NCBI GenBank assembly: GCA_026417655.1
Contig: JAOACS010000007.1
Coordinates: 1-61,891 of the forward strand
Direction: 5' to 3'
DNA: 61,891 nt
DNA from: Syntrophobacterales bacterium
Lineage (GTDB): Bacteria > Desulfobacterota > Syntrophobacteria > Syntrophobacterales > Thermodesulforhabdaceae
The translations under genes and the position numbers were made by a program. Each line of letters starts with the position of its first letter. The first letter of the stretch is position 1. Below, piece after piece: positions 46,086-51,399 of this stretch. Below the pieces are notes generated by a model. That model was not told the origin of the DNA. It did no database searches and saw only the letters and a program-made list of their open reading frames with translations.

Positions 46086-47144
46086 ATGAACCCTGTGGGT
46101 AAAGAATACACCCTCTCTGAACTCGCCCGTCTCTTTGGAGTAAAGCTCCAAGGGGACGGCTCCATCGTAATTCGCGGTGTAGCACCCATAGAAAGGGCAG
46201 ATCGATATCATATCACTTTTATAGAAAGCCGTAAGTTCTTGCCTCCCAAACCTTCTATGATTACGGCGGGAGCTATCGTAACTCATCCATCCCTTGCGGA
46301 AAAGCTGTCGGAATTCCCCCTAATTTTATCACCTACTCCTAAGGCAACCTTTGCCCGTATCGCTCAAATCTTTTACAAAGGTCCGGCTTTGCCGACCGGT
46401 GTCCATCCTATGGCATGGATAAATCCTAAGGCCAGGGTTGAGGCAAATGTGAGGGTTGGCCCCTTTGTTTGTATAGGCGATGGATCAACTGTTGGGAAAG
46501 AAACTGTTATTATGGCCCACTGTTACGTGGGAAGTAACGTCGTTATAGGCAGTGGATGTCTTATTTATCCAGGGGTTATCATTCTGGATGGATGCACAAT
46601 AGGCGATAGGGTAATAATTCACAGTGGGACCGTTATTGGAAGTGATGGATTTGGTTATGCTCTCGATGAGCAGGGCGAACCTGTAAAAATCCCCCAATTA
46701 GGCACTGTGGTAATTGAAGATGATGTGGAAATTGGGGCCAATTGCACAATTGATCGTGCAACATTTGGAGAGACCCGAATTAAGCGAGGTTCTAAAATAG
46801 ACAATCTAGTCACGGTCGCCCATAACGTAACCTTAGGTCAACGATGTATCATTGCAGGGCAGTCAGGAATAGCGGGAAGTTCGATCCTGGGAGATGGAGT
46901 TATTGTAGGAGGACAGGTTGGAATAACTGATCATATCGTTATTGGGAATGGGGTAAGAATTGGAGCCAAAAGCGGAGTTTTTTATGATGTGAAGGATAAA
47001 ATGGATATATTTGGTATCCCAGCTCTTCCTAAAGAGGAGTACCTTAGGATTCAAGGAGGTATAAGAAGGATTGAACGCCTTAGGAAGAAGGTTAAGGATT
47101 TGGAAGAGATCGTTCAAAAATCTCTAACAGGGACAAAGAGATGA
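46086..47144 (+). CDS. lpxD: UDP-3-O-acylglucosamine N-acyltransferase LpxD
   Basis: This ~352-residue third enzyme of lipid A synthesis adds the N-linked acyl chain. The N-terminal uridine-binding domain ([18 protein letters not shown]) is followed by ~10 hexapeptide repeats ([17 protein letters not shown]...), and the catalytic His is in [20 protein letters not shown] and [16 protein letters not shown] are typical. A long C-terminal helix follows ([16 protein letters not shown]). The open frame before ATG 46086 lies inside skp and is ignored. fabZ overlaps its stop by 4 bases. Confidence 0.96.
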
Positions 47145-47569
47145 CAAAAGATGTCAAATGGATTCAGTCTGTATTGCCCCATAGGTATCCCTTTCTGATG
47201 GTGGATCGAATCCTTTTTATATCGGCTGAAGAAGCCGTTGGAGTAAAAAATGTAACGATAAATGAGCCGTATTTTCAGGGGCACTTTCCTGACGATCCCA
47301 TTATGCCAGGTGTTCTACTTTTAGAGGCCCTTGCTCAACTTGGTGGTGCCATGATTAACTTCGGTCATGGCGAAAAGGAGGAAAGAAGAGGCTACTTTGC
47401 AGGACTAGATGGTGTAAGGTTTAGAAGGCCGGTCCGCCCTGGGGATCAAATCATCTTAAAGGTGACCCTTATTAAGCATAAAGGAAACATTTACAAACTG
47501 AAGGGTGAAGCAACAGTAGATGGCGAGACTGTAGTAGAGGGTGAACTTCTTATAGCTCTTGGTAAATGA
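47141..47569 (+). CDS. fabZ: 3-hydroxyacyl-ACP dehydratase FabZ
   Basis: This 142-residue hot-dog-fold enzyme dehydrates 3-hydroxyacyl-ACP in fatty-acid elongation and competes with LpxA/LpxD for the same substrates. [13 protein letters not shown] (catalytic His) and [26 protein letters not shown] (catalytic Glu in the central helix) are diagnostic. ATGA overlaps with lpxD on one side and lpxA on the other show tight coupling. Confidence 0.97.
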
Positions 47570-47595
47570 GTTATCAACAGGAGGGGAAGATTAAA

Positions 47596-48375
47596 GTGAG
47601 CCAGATTCATCCAACAGCGGTTGTTCACAGGGGAGCGGAGATAGGAGAAGGCACAATCATTGAACCCTATGTTATTATAGGACCTGAGGTGAAAATTGGG
47701 AAAGGTAATAGAATCGGAGCCCACACGGTTATAGAGGGCCGAACAACTATTGGTGAGGGTAACACTATTTTCCCCTTTGTATCTATAGGCTTACCACCCC
47801 AAGACATATCCTATCGAGACGAGCCAACGGAAGTTGTAATAGGAAACCGTAATATCATACGAGAGGGGGTAACCATCCATAGAGGCACAATAAGAGGGAC
47901 TGGATTGACCAAGATTGGCGACGACAACTATCTTATGGCCTATTCTCACGTAGCCCACGATTGTGTGATAGGAAACCACGTAATTCTAGCCAATTGTGCA
48001 TCCCTTGCGGGACACGTAATTATTAGTGATTATGCTGTCATAGGAGGCCTTGTAGGGGTTCATCAGTTCGTTCGAATAGGAAAATACGCATTTATAGGTG
48101 GACTCAGCGGGATTTCAATGGATATTCCTCCCTTTATGATAGCCGCTGGCGACAGGGCAAAACTCTATGGGCCAAATATTGTGGGTCTTAGACGCGCTGG
48201 CTTTTCTCCTGAAACGATCATGTCTATAAAAAGAGCATACAAGATCCTATTCCGTTCAGGTCTTACGTTACAAAAGGCAATAAATAAGCTTCGAGGAGAA
48301 AAGGTCCCATCAAGGGAAGTTGAAGAACTTATTGAGTTTATGGAGGCTCCCTCTAAAAGAGGCGTAACGAGGTAA
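47596..48375 (+). CDS. lpxA: UDP-N-acetylglucosamine O-acyltransferase LpxA
   Basis: This ~259-residue first enzyme of lipid A synthesis has left-handed beta-helix repeats from IHPTAVVHRGAEIGEGT onwards, the catalytic His in MAYSHVAHDCVIGN and IADY/GVHQFVRIGKYAF, then the C-terminal helices (GLRRAGFSPETIMSIKRAYKI). An ATG at 47566 opens the frame, but GTG 47596 sits 8-9 bases behind AGGAGGGG and gives the standard LpxA N-terminus, so I start there. If its dehydrogenase-fused neighbour makes a 3-amino sugar, this LpxA may use an amino-sugar acceptor. Confidence 0.96.
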   Translation: MSQIHPTAVVHRGAEIGEGTIIEPYVIIGPEVKIGKGNRIGAHTVIEGRTTIGEGNTIFPFVSIGLPPQDISYRDEPTEVVIGNRNIIREGVTIHRGTIRGTGLTKIGDDNYLMAYSHVAHDCVIGNHVILANCASLAGHVIISDYAVIGGLVGVHQFVRIGKYAFIGGLSGISMDIPPFMIAAGDRAKLYGPNIVGLRRAGFSPETIMSIKRAYKILFRSGLTLQKAINKLRGEKVPSREVEELIEFMEAPSKRGVTR

Positions 48376-48379
48376 GAAG

Positions 48380-50212
48380 GTGATTAGAAAGGAGCTATCC
48401 CTTACCAACTCTTCAAACAACCCCATTGGTTTAATAGCCGGAGGAGGTCAATTTCCCATTCTATTTTCTAAAGCAGCAAAGGAAAACGGATTTTCTGTGG
48501 TAGCTATAGGGATTGAGGGAGACGCCTCCAATGAATTAGCTAAATGGACAGACTATCTCTATTGGGTAAAACTTGGCGAGGTGGGCAAAATCATTTCAAT
48601 CTTAAAGAATCAATGTGTTGGTCGAGTGGTTTTGGCGGGACATGTTGACAAAAAACGTATCTACTCAAGAATTAAACTAGATCTTCGCGGTGCAAAGCTC
48701 GCCATGAAGCTTATCAACAAAAACGATGATGCTTTGCTTAGAACCTTTGCTGAAGAATTAGAAAAGGAGGGGATAATTGTAGAACCATCTACCCTATTTC
48801 TAACATCCCTAATTGCTCCCGAGGGAATTCTTACTAAGAGGGTTCCAACTCCTAGAGAAGTTAAAGATATTGTCTTTGGGTGGAGGTTAGCTAAATCTAT
48901 TGGTGGAATGGATATAGGACAGTGTGTCGTTGTTAAGCATCAGGCAGTTCTTGCAGTTGAAGCTATTGACGGCACAGATGCTACCATAATTAGAGGGGGG
49001 AAACTTTGTAACGGTGGAGCTGTAGTGGTAAAGGTCAGCAAACCCGGTCAGGATCTACGCTTTGATGTTCCATCTGTTGGGCTAGGCACTATTGAGACAA
49101 TGAAAAAAGTAGATGCAAAGGTTCTCGCTATAGAGGCGGGAAAAACTCTCATATTTGATAAAGATGCTATGATTAAAGAGGCCGATAGTGGGGGAATCGC
49201 TATTGTAGCTTTGAAGAATCCAGAGGATATAAAACATCTCCAGAGAAAGGTCGATGGATATAAGGGTATTTTTTCTTTCCTTAGAGGTAGAAAAAAGAGT
49301 CTAAAAATGGGAGTAGTTGGCACGGGATACCTAGGGAAATTTCATGTAGAAAAGCTCGCTCAGATGCCCTTTGTTGATCTAAGAGCCGTTGTAGATATTA
49401 ATGAAGAGGTAGCTAAATCTGTAGGTAACCGCTTTAGAGTTCCCTACTTTACATCCCATCATGAAATTATCGGAGAAGTTGAGGCCGTAACTATCGCTAC
49501 CCCTACAGATACGCATTTCTCCATAGCACAGGATCTCCTAGAGGCAGGGATACACGTATTTATAGAAAAACCCATAACTCGAAGACTTGAAGAGGCCGAT
49601 CACCTTATTGAACTAGCTGAGAGGAAAGGGTGTGTTCTTCAGGTAGGCCATATTGAGCGCTTTAATCCTGCCTTTATAGCCCTAAGTAAGAGGATTAAAT
49701 CGCCATCTTTTATATACTCGAAACGTCTTAGTCCATTTAAAGAGAGAAGTGTAGGTATTGATGTCGTGCTGGATCTTATGATTCATGATATTGATCTACT
49801 TTTAAATCTTGTTCCCGGTGAGATATCTAGCTGGTCAATAGATGGGAAGGCCGTTGTGACCCATTTACCGGATGTGGTCTTCGCCCGCATGGACTTCTCC
49901 ACCGGAACCACGGCCTATCTTGAAGCGAGCCGAATATGGAGTGATGAAATCAGGAAGATGGAGGTAATTGAAAATGGAGTCTGCCTAGTAGCCGATTATA
50001 AGAGACAGGAGGTCCATGAGTTCTCTATAAATTCAAAGGCTAATGTCCCTAAAGTGTTAGAGGTGGAACCCATGGATACATTAGAAAGTGAACTTCGTAG
50101 CTTCGTAGAAGCTGTTATGTTCTCAAATAAGCCATCGGTTGATGGTCAGGCGGCGCGGCGGGCTCTTGCGCTTGCCCTCCAAATGTCACAAGCCATTTCC
50201 AAAACCTTTTAG
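48380..50212 (+). CDS. lpxI: Fusion of LpxI (UDP-2,3-diacylglucosamine hydrolase) and Gfo/Idh/MocA dehydrogenase
   Basis: This 610-residue two-domain protein has LpxI (DUF1009) at residues ~15-290: IGLIAGGGQFPILFSKAA, GEVGKIISILK, RVVLAGHVDKK, LLRTFAEELEKEGI, KHQAVLAVEAIDGTDATI and DVPSVGLGTIETM. After a ~25-residue linker (KVDGYKGIFSFLRGRKKSL), residues ~312-610 are a complete Gfo/Idh/MocA enzyme with Rossmann motif MGVVGTGYLGKFH, then VTIATPTDTH, FIEKPITRR (EKP) and GHIERFNPAF. LpxI makes lipid X. The dehydrogenase could be GnnA-like (UDP-GlcNAc 3-oxidation), which in some bacteria lies between lpxA and lpxB. The frame is continuous. The start is GTG. Confidence 0.9.
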   Translation: MIRKELSLTNSSNNPIGLIAGGGQFPILFSKAAKENGFSVVAIGIEGDASNELAKWTDYLYWVKLGEVGKIISILKNQCVGRVVLAGHVDKKRIYSRIKLDLRGAKLAMKLINKNDDALLRTFAEELEKEGIIVEPSTLFLTSLIAPEGILTKRVPTPREVKDIVFGWRLAKSIGGMDIGQCVVVKHQAVLAVEAIDGTDATIIRGGKLCNGGAVVVKVSKPGQDLRFDVPSVGLGTIETMKKVDAKVLAIEAGKTLIFDKDAMIKEADSGGIAIVALKNPEDIKHLQRKVDGYKGIFSFLRGRKKSLKMGVVGTGYLGKFHVEKLAQMPFVDLRAVVDINEEVAKSVGNRFRVPYFTSHHEIIGEVEAVTIATPTDTHFSIAQDLLEAGIHVFIEKPITRRLEEADHLIELAERKGCVLQVGHIERFNPAFIALSKRIKSPSFIYSKRLSPFKERSVGIDVVLDLMIHDIDLLLNLVPGEISSWSIDGKAVVTHLPDVVFARMDFSTGTTAYLEASRIWSDEIRKMEVIENGVCLVADYKRQEVHEFSINSKANVPKVLEVEPMDTLESELRSFVEAVMFSNKPSVDGQAARRALALALQMSQAISKTF

Positions 50213-50235
50213 CATTGATTTGTAGGGACCAGAGA

Positions 50236-51399
50236 ATGGATATCTTAATTTCTACCGGTGATCTTTCGGGAGAAATTTATGGGGTGGAAATTCTAGGCAG
50301 GTTAAGGAAGGTGTTTCCAACGGTAAATTTTTTTTCCCTCACAAAGGGTATTCTTTCAAAGGCCGGTGCTATTCCCATAAGTCCAATAACCAACATTGGA
50401 GTAGTGGGCATCACTGAAGTGATAACTCAGGCCAAGAATCTATGGAAGCTTTTACAATGTCTACAAAGTTTTTTTGAACGCTCGACTCCAAAGGTTGTGA
50501 TTCTTATAGATTTTCCTGACATGAATCTCCACATTGTGGCTCGCATGGCGAAGCGTAGGGGTGCCAGGGTGTTATATTTTATTCCTCCTCAGGTATGGGC
50601 ATGGCGCCCATCCCGCATAAAGCTCTTAAAAAAACTAACCGATAGCCTGATAGTAATACTTCCCTTCGAGGAATCCTTCTATAAGAGAGCAAATATAAAA
50701 GAGGTTGTCTATTTTGGACATCCCCTTGTGGACAGGGTATCCCTCAATAGATTTCCTACCTTAGAGACTGAAAAGAGTTTGACCATAGGGCTCTTCCCAG
50801 GAAGTAGAATTTCCGAATGGAACCATCATATACCAATTGTAAATGAAGTTGTAAGCCAACTTCGCTCCCTTTACTCCGAAGCACGCTTTCTCTTGGCAGT
50901 AGCACCGGGAATGGAAAAACTGGTTTCTAGTTTTGAGCTAAGCCATTATATAGAATTAATTTTTGGATCGGAGTTAGAAACCGCAACAGAAGGTGTCTTG
51001 AAAAGGTGTCATCTTGCTCTCATGGCCTCCGGAACTGTAACTCTTGAAGCTGCCCTTCTAGGGGTTCCCATGATCGTATTTTACAAAGTATCCCCATTAA
51101 GCGCCCTGATTACCAGAAAACTTATAAAGATTCCCTTTGGTTCACTACCAAATATTATCGTAGGAGAATATATTGTCCCCGAATTTATCGAATTTATCAG
51201 GCATTTTGAACCCGAGGATCTCCTAAGGGCTACTAAACATCTAATTGAGGACTTCTATTTATTTAAAAACAATCAACACCTTCATGACTCAGCATGGCAG
51301 AAACAAAAAGTTGCCCTTACAAAGGTGAAGGAAAGTCTCGGAACTCCCCCAGTAATGGAGCGAATTGCCGATTATATTTTGTCTTTTATTACAAGATAA
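50236..51399 (+). CDS. lpxB: Lipid-A-disaccharide synthase LpxB
   Basis: This ~387-residue GT19 glycosyltransferase joins lipid X and UDP-diacyl-GlcN. MDILISTGDLSGEIYGVEIL (GDxSGD-type start, here GDLSGE), VVILIDFPDMNLHIVARMAKRRG, YFIPPQVWAWRPSRIKLLKK, YFGHPLVDRV, LFPGSRISEW and LMASGTVTLEAALLGVPMIVFYK match family hallmarks. The frame opens at a TTG (50215), but ATG 50236 follows AGGGA. It follows the LpxI fusion by 23 bases. Confidence 0.96.
   Translation: MDILISTGDLSGEIYGVEILGRLRKVFPTVNFFSLTKGILSKAGAIPISPITNIGVVGITEVITQAKNLWKLLQCLQSFFERSTPKVVILIDFPDMNLHIVARMAKRRGARVLYFIPPQVWAWRPSRIKLLKKLTDSLIVILPFEESFYKRANIKEVVYFGHPLVDRVSLNRFPTLETEKSLTIGLFPGSRISEWNHHIPIVNEVVSQLRSLYSEARFLLAVAPGMEKLVSSFELSHYIELIFGSELETATEGVLKRCHLALMASGTVTLEAALLGVPMIVFYKVSPLSALITRKLIKIPFGSLPNIIVGEYIVPEFIEFIRHFEPEDLLRATKHLIEDFYLFKNNQHLHDSAWQKQKVALTKVKESLGTPPVMERIADYILSFITR

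Follow-up and report, generated by a model that had tools for sequence, protein, structure and literature searches.

An LpxI–GnnA fusion encoded between lpxA and lpxB in a Syntrophobacterales bacterium and its class

One uninterrupted gene in the lipid A cluster of a Syntrophobacterales bacterium encodes a full-length LpxI joined to a full-length GnnA-type dehydrogenase. We propose, with a probability of roughly 0.7, that the product is a bifunctional LpxI–GnnA enzyme which feeds the synthesis of amide-linked (GlcN3N) lipid A. Within the window, which denotes the whole stretch of 61,891 nucleotides analyzed here, the fusion gene is located between lpxA, which stops 4 bases 5' of it, and lpxB, which lies immediately 3' (Table 1). 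Four Pfam domains score above the cut-off in its product and nothing interrupts the 610-codon frame, in agreement with an earlier note on this DNA that had described one unbroken frame of LpxI and a dehydrogenase between the two genes. Both enzyme families are already known, and the joined form is what is new; we found no mention of it in the literature searched, the coverage of which excluded most subscription journals.

Table 1. Coordinates in the window of the fusion gene, its parts and its neighbors
Feature	Position	Strand	Evidence or remark
fabZ	47141..47569	+	upstream; Pfam FabA-like
lpxA	47566..48375	+	upstream; Pfam Acetyltransf_11 and Hexapep
lpxI-gnnA fusion gene	48380..50212	+	single open frame, GTG start, 610 aa
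LpxI domain (UDP-2,3-diacylglucosamine hydrolase), residues 16-276	48425..49207	+	PF17930, PF06230
Codon of D229	49064..49066	+	aligned to the Asp replaced by Ala in LpxI entry 4j6e
Linker, residues 279-304	49214..49291	+	pLDDT <50 at 289-304; length varies in relatives
GnnA-like UDP-GlcNAc 3-dehydrogenase domain, residues 305-610	49292..50209	+	PF01408, PF22725, NF040723, 7bvj, tree
K397 of EKP motif	49568..49570	+	111/111 lpx-linked dehydrogenases, 7bvj included
D465-x-M-I-H469-D470 motif	49772..49789	+	D465, M467, I468, H469, D470 each 111/111, 7bvj included
lpxB	50215..51399	+	downstream; Pfam LpxB E 5e-78

In the N-terminal half, the Pfam domains LpxI_N (residues 16-143, E 6e-37) and LpxI_C (residues 147-276, E 2e-49) are both complete and well above the cut-off. 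The LpxI model NF047836 is covered nearly entirely (E 1.5e-44), with a score of 152.5 bits that lies below its curated cut-off of 400. This half shares 33% identity with the LpxI of the solved structure 4ggm. Alignments to 4ggm and 4j6e locate D229, which is invariant in 32 fused proteins, at the position that we take to be the LpxI catalytic Asp (D225 in Caulobacter). The bacterium's own genome yielded no LpxH, in line with the LpxI half hydrolyzing UDP-2,3-diacylglucosamine.

The C-terminal half consists of a GFO_IDH_MocA domain (residues 309-424, E 1e-32) and a GFO C-terminal domain (residues 456-527, E 3e-7). Its top NCBIfam match is NF040723, a UDP-GlcNAc 3-dehydrogenase model whose short name marks an archaeal family; the match (E 1e-54) reaches 186 bits, below the cut-off of 450. 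The AlphaFold model of the fusion protein, for which 32 fused sequences were aligned, reaches a mean pLDDT of 85.5. The PDB structure closest to its C-terminal half is GnnA of Acidithiobacillus ferrooxidans (7bvj; Z 41.2, rmsd 1.6 Å, 299 residues, 38% identity), followed by the next enzyme at Z 35.4 and by WlbA (3q2k) at Z 32.9. In a tree of 132 sequences built by a quick method, the dehydrogenase half groups among the enzymes encoded between lpxA and lpxB, with 7bvj in the same clade on a long branch, and a branch of support 100 divides 111 GnnA-type enzymes (7bvj included) from 21 WbpB-like ones. Residues K397 (the catalytic Lys of the Gfo/Idh/MocA superfamily), H469 and D470 show no variation in either group. 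By comparison, H322, R427, R456, M467, I468, D472 and R518 are invariant or nearly so in the GnnA group, as in 7bvj, and differ in nearly all WbpB-like enzymes. A WbpB- or WlbA-type identity was dismissed on the tree and these clade-specific residues. Thus domains, tree, predicted structure and active-site residues together bear out the proposal of the earlier note that a GnnA-like dehydrogenase is joined to LpxI within the lpx cluster. The fused dehydrogenase is the sole Gfo/Idh/MocA enzyme of its genome, as the two further PF01408 matches were recognized from their sequences as ProC and Rex.

The fusion is conserved well beyond this assembly. A single full-length match in one frame was found in 30 of 59 genomes (the bacterium's own and its relatives), and 15 more have the two halves in frames of identical length, one of which (G010) was checked as an example, bringing the count to 45 of 59. 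The fusion protein of the other species of the genus is 62% identical, and those of 28 further relatives are 44-51% identical. Among cultured species, Desulfacinum hydrothermale carries the fusion, its protein (L002) being identical to L086 from genome G007, a member of the same order as the bacterium studied here. Such conservation in one frame rules out an assembly error, a frameshift or a missing stop at the junction. In addition, each half is a full-length domain whose active-site residues do not vary, and the fusion is therefore not a product of chance. Genomes outside the class have lpxI as a separate gene next to that of the dehydrogenase or lack lpxI, and in many relatives the dehydrogenase lies between lpxA and lpxB while lpxI is a gene of its own or is missing. 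As the tree needs only one change to account for all fused proteins, the fusion most likely arose once, from adjacent separate lpxI and gnnA genes, and it has been retained by several families of a single class. It had been taken as a feature of this genome; it is indeed present here, yet it is not peculiar to it.

Other long frames of the phylum (G128, G131, G160, G190 and others) were rejected as further fusions, with lpxI in a different overlapping frame or not found. Another kind of fusion within this operon was seen at L043:3585-5651 (+), where the dehydrogenase and LpxB share one frame of 688 aa. FabZ lies in frames of 428-458 aa at L021:2912-4198 and L043:234-1610, which are probably LpxC-FabZ fusions. 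LpxC-FabZ fusions are known from Bacteroidetes and others (PMC3087551). Given these and the dehydrogenase-LpxB frame of L043, the lpx operon fuses readily.

Neither a gnnB within the window nor a degT adjoining the fusion gene was found. The earlier note had likewise reported no gnnB in the window, which is correct and incomplete, as a search of the genome (96% complete) yielded one candidate, a full-length C3-type DegT of 541 aa encoded elsewhere (G000:C25:21079-22701). It is the sole full-length sugar DegT aminotransferase of the genome. Its best solved relatives, aligned over the aminotransferase part, are 4qgr from Brucella abortus and WbpE (3nyu). It falls within a WbpE-type clade, apart from the degT genes of lpx clusters. 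Since the fused dehydrogenase and this DegT are each the only one of their kind in the genome, their pairing would be the simplest reading. The separate location of gnnA and gnnB in Mesorhizobium loti is a precedent for pairing in trans (PMC5644692). Identity to GnnB is just 37-39% for the gnnB candidates of Granulibacter, a bacterium with lipid A that is discussed as containing GlcN3N (PMC8036547).

The WbpE-type character of the candidate, together with the WbpB-like dehydrogenases that adjoin its relatives in four genomes (G010, G011, G027 and G055), would also suit a dehydrogenase that supplies another 3-amino sugar for O-antigen or glycan, as WbpB or WlbA does, its lpx placement being incidental. 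We consider this improbable, as the dehydrogenase is split from the WbpB-like enzymes at full support and groups with GnnA, and many lineages have retained its placement between lpxA and lpxB, several of them with a degT there.

The DegT candidate, also recorded as L111:1462-3087 (-), begins with a domain of some 150 residues that matches no Pfam family, and this N-terminal extension recurs in G001-G004, G010, G027 and G055. In the model of this domain, the order of strands and helices resembles that of a PIN domain. At L193-L196, the WbpB-like dehydrogenases next to the DegT homologue occupy frames of 539-595 aa and may therefore include an additional domain.

Across the phylum, the dehydrogenase and DegT proteins of this type co-occur. 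In a sample of 197 genomes, each at least 90% complete and those unnamed in the tables deduced from numbering gaps, 168 have an lpx-type dehydrogenase. A DegT matching the candidate at E up to 1e-55 is present in 159 of these 168 and in 15 of the 29 others (Fisher p 3e-8, kinship ignored). If the latter group is limited to families f26, f44, f49 and f64, where the dehydrogenase is missing from every named genome of the sample, such a DegT is present in 6 of 16 genomes (p 6e-8). The link is not strict, because those 6 genomes of dehydrogenase-free families hold the DegT nonetheless. Most of the nine exceptions with the dehydrogenase and without the DegT hold some other DegT-family protein, and mere presence of the family therefore tells little. 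In other lineages, such a DegT (E up to 1e-40) accompanies an lpx-linked dehydrogenase in 23 of 24 genomes. Furthermore, several lineages, among them Gammaproteobacteria and Geobacter, have these genes in the order lpxA-gnnA-degT-lpxB or gnnA-degT-lpxB, and adjacent coordinates in the phylum tables add further gnnA-degT neighbors. Within family f5, a DegT match at E 1e-20 is found in four of six fused genomes and in none of five without the fusion. G040, G044, G049, G052 and G053 of this family have neither the fusion nor a DegT of the candidate's type, though their relatives carry the fusion.

Some fused genomes depart from this pattern, which is the chief reservation about the proposed function. 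In G018 and G028, which belong to one genus, and in G042, the fusion is present and no DegT of the candidate's type was found (genomes 87-94% complete). This might suggest that the C-terminal domain has ceased to act as an enzyme. However, all 32 fused proteins compared, those of the DegT-less genomes included, have K397, H424, D465, H469 and D470, and a loss of activity is thus highly improbable. Loss of catalytic residues in the DegT-less genomes had been considered as a natural experiment and gained no support, all such residues being kept in these three genomes. The two genomes of one genus are a real puzzle despite their incompleteness. There, the tethered dehydrogenase could conceivably make or interconvert a 3-keto sugar nucleotide for a use other than amination, which would add a branch to lipid A synthesis that has not been described before; we regard this as very unlikely.

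These data enable us to propose a putative role for the bifunctional LpxI–GnnA enzyme. The pathway to amide-linked lipid A starts from UDP-GlcNAc and proceeds through GnnA, GnnB, LpxA, LpxC, LpxD, LpxI and LpxB, with GnnA at step 1 and LpxI at step 6. Initially, the C-terminal GnnA half would use NAD to oxidize UDP-GlcNAc at its C3 hydroxyl. The DegT aminotransferase encoded at G000:C25 would then convert the 3-keto sugar to UDP-GlcNAc3N, which LpxA would N-acylate, and the resulting lipid A would bear amide-linked chains at C3. The N-terminal LpxI half would convert UDP-2,3-diacyl-glucosamine to lipid X. From the GnnA clade and the DegT co-occurrence, the dehydrogenase is probably tied to amide-linked lipid A, as the earlier note had suggested. 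Its further idea of a route coupled to lipid X formation found no support; direct channeling between the halves is unlikely, because GnnB, LpxA, LpxC and LpxD act between GnnA and LpxI.

The same note had offered a second role, a check on the choice of precursor that LpxI hydrolyzes, for which the tethered dehydrogenase would serve as a kind of sensor. The physical link would agree with such a role. However, the linker, 26 residues here and 26-48 across the 32 fused relatives, is predicted by AlphaFold to be disordered over residues 289-304, the dehydrogenase keeps its full catalytic set, and it occupies the same place, adjoining lpxB equally, where lpxI is separate or absent. Moreover, the separate lpxI of Caulobacter is functional without the dehydrogenase (PMC3087551). 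A sensor or check is accordingly most doubtful and found no support.

The gain from joining would be at most equal dosage and co-location, and possibly none. We give even odds to a neutral fusion, in which each enzyme works as it would on its own and the joining serves no function. The non-consecutive steps of GnnA and LpxI, the adjacency of their genes in unfused relatives and the readiness of the operon to fuse all point in this direction. On the other side, the fusion has persisted in several families of one class even as its linker diverged, suggesting at least mild selection or a fusion that is hard to split. Neutrality bears on the effect of the tether only and is compatible with the bifunctional LpxI–GnnA reading.

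In summary, the fusion places GnnA in the lipid A pathway throughout a bacterial class, and, with the dehydrogenase present in 168 of 197 genomes, the survey predicts that most of the phylum carries the enzyme for amide-linked (GlcN3N) lipid A. As in LpxC-FabZ, two adjacent genes of the lipid A operon are joined, whereas the enzymes differ. The DegT candidate is similar to GnnB and WbpE-type aminotransferases over the aminotransferase part, and differs from them in its additional N-terminal residues and in lying outside the lpx-cluster degT group. The dehydrogenase matches GnnA of A. ferrooxidans (7bvj/7bvk) in fold, active-site and clade residues and tree clade, and is distinguished by its tie to LpxI and by the lack of an adjoining degT. 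With LpxI of 4ggm, the protein has in common two full-length Pfam domains, a gene site between lpxA and lpxB and the conserved Asp at the 4j6e mutant position; in contrast to that LpxI, it bears an additional C-terminal dehydrogenase.
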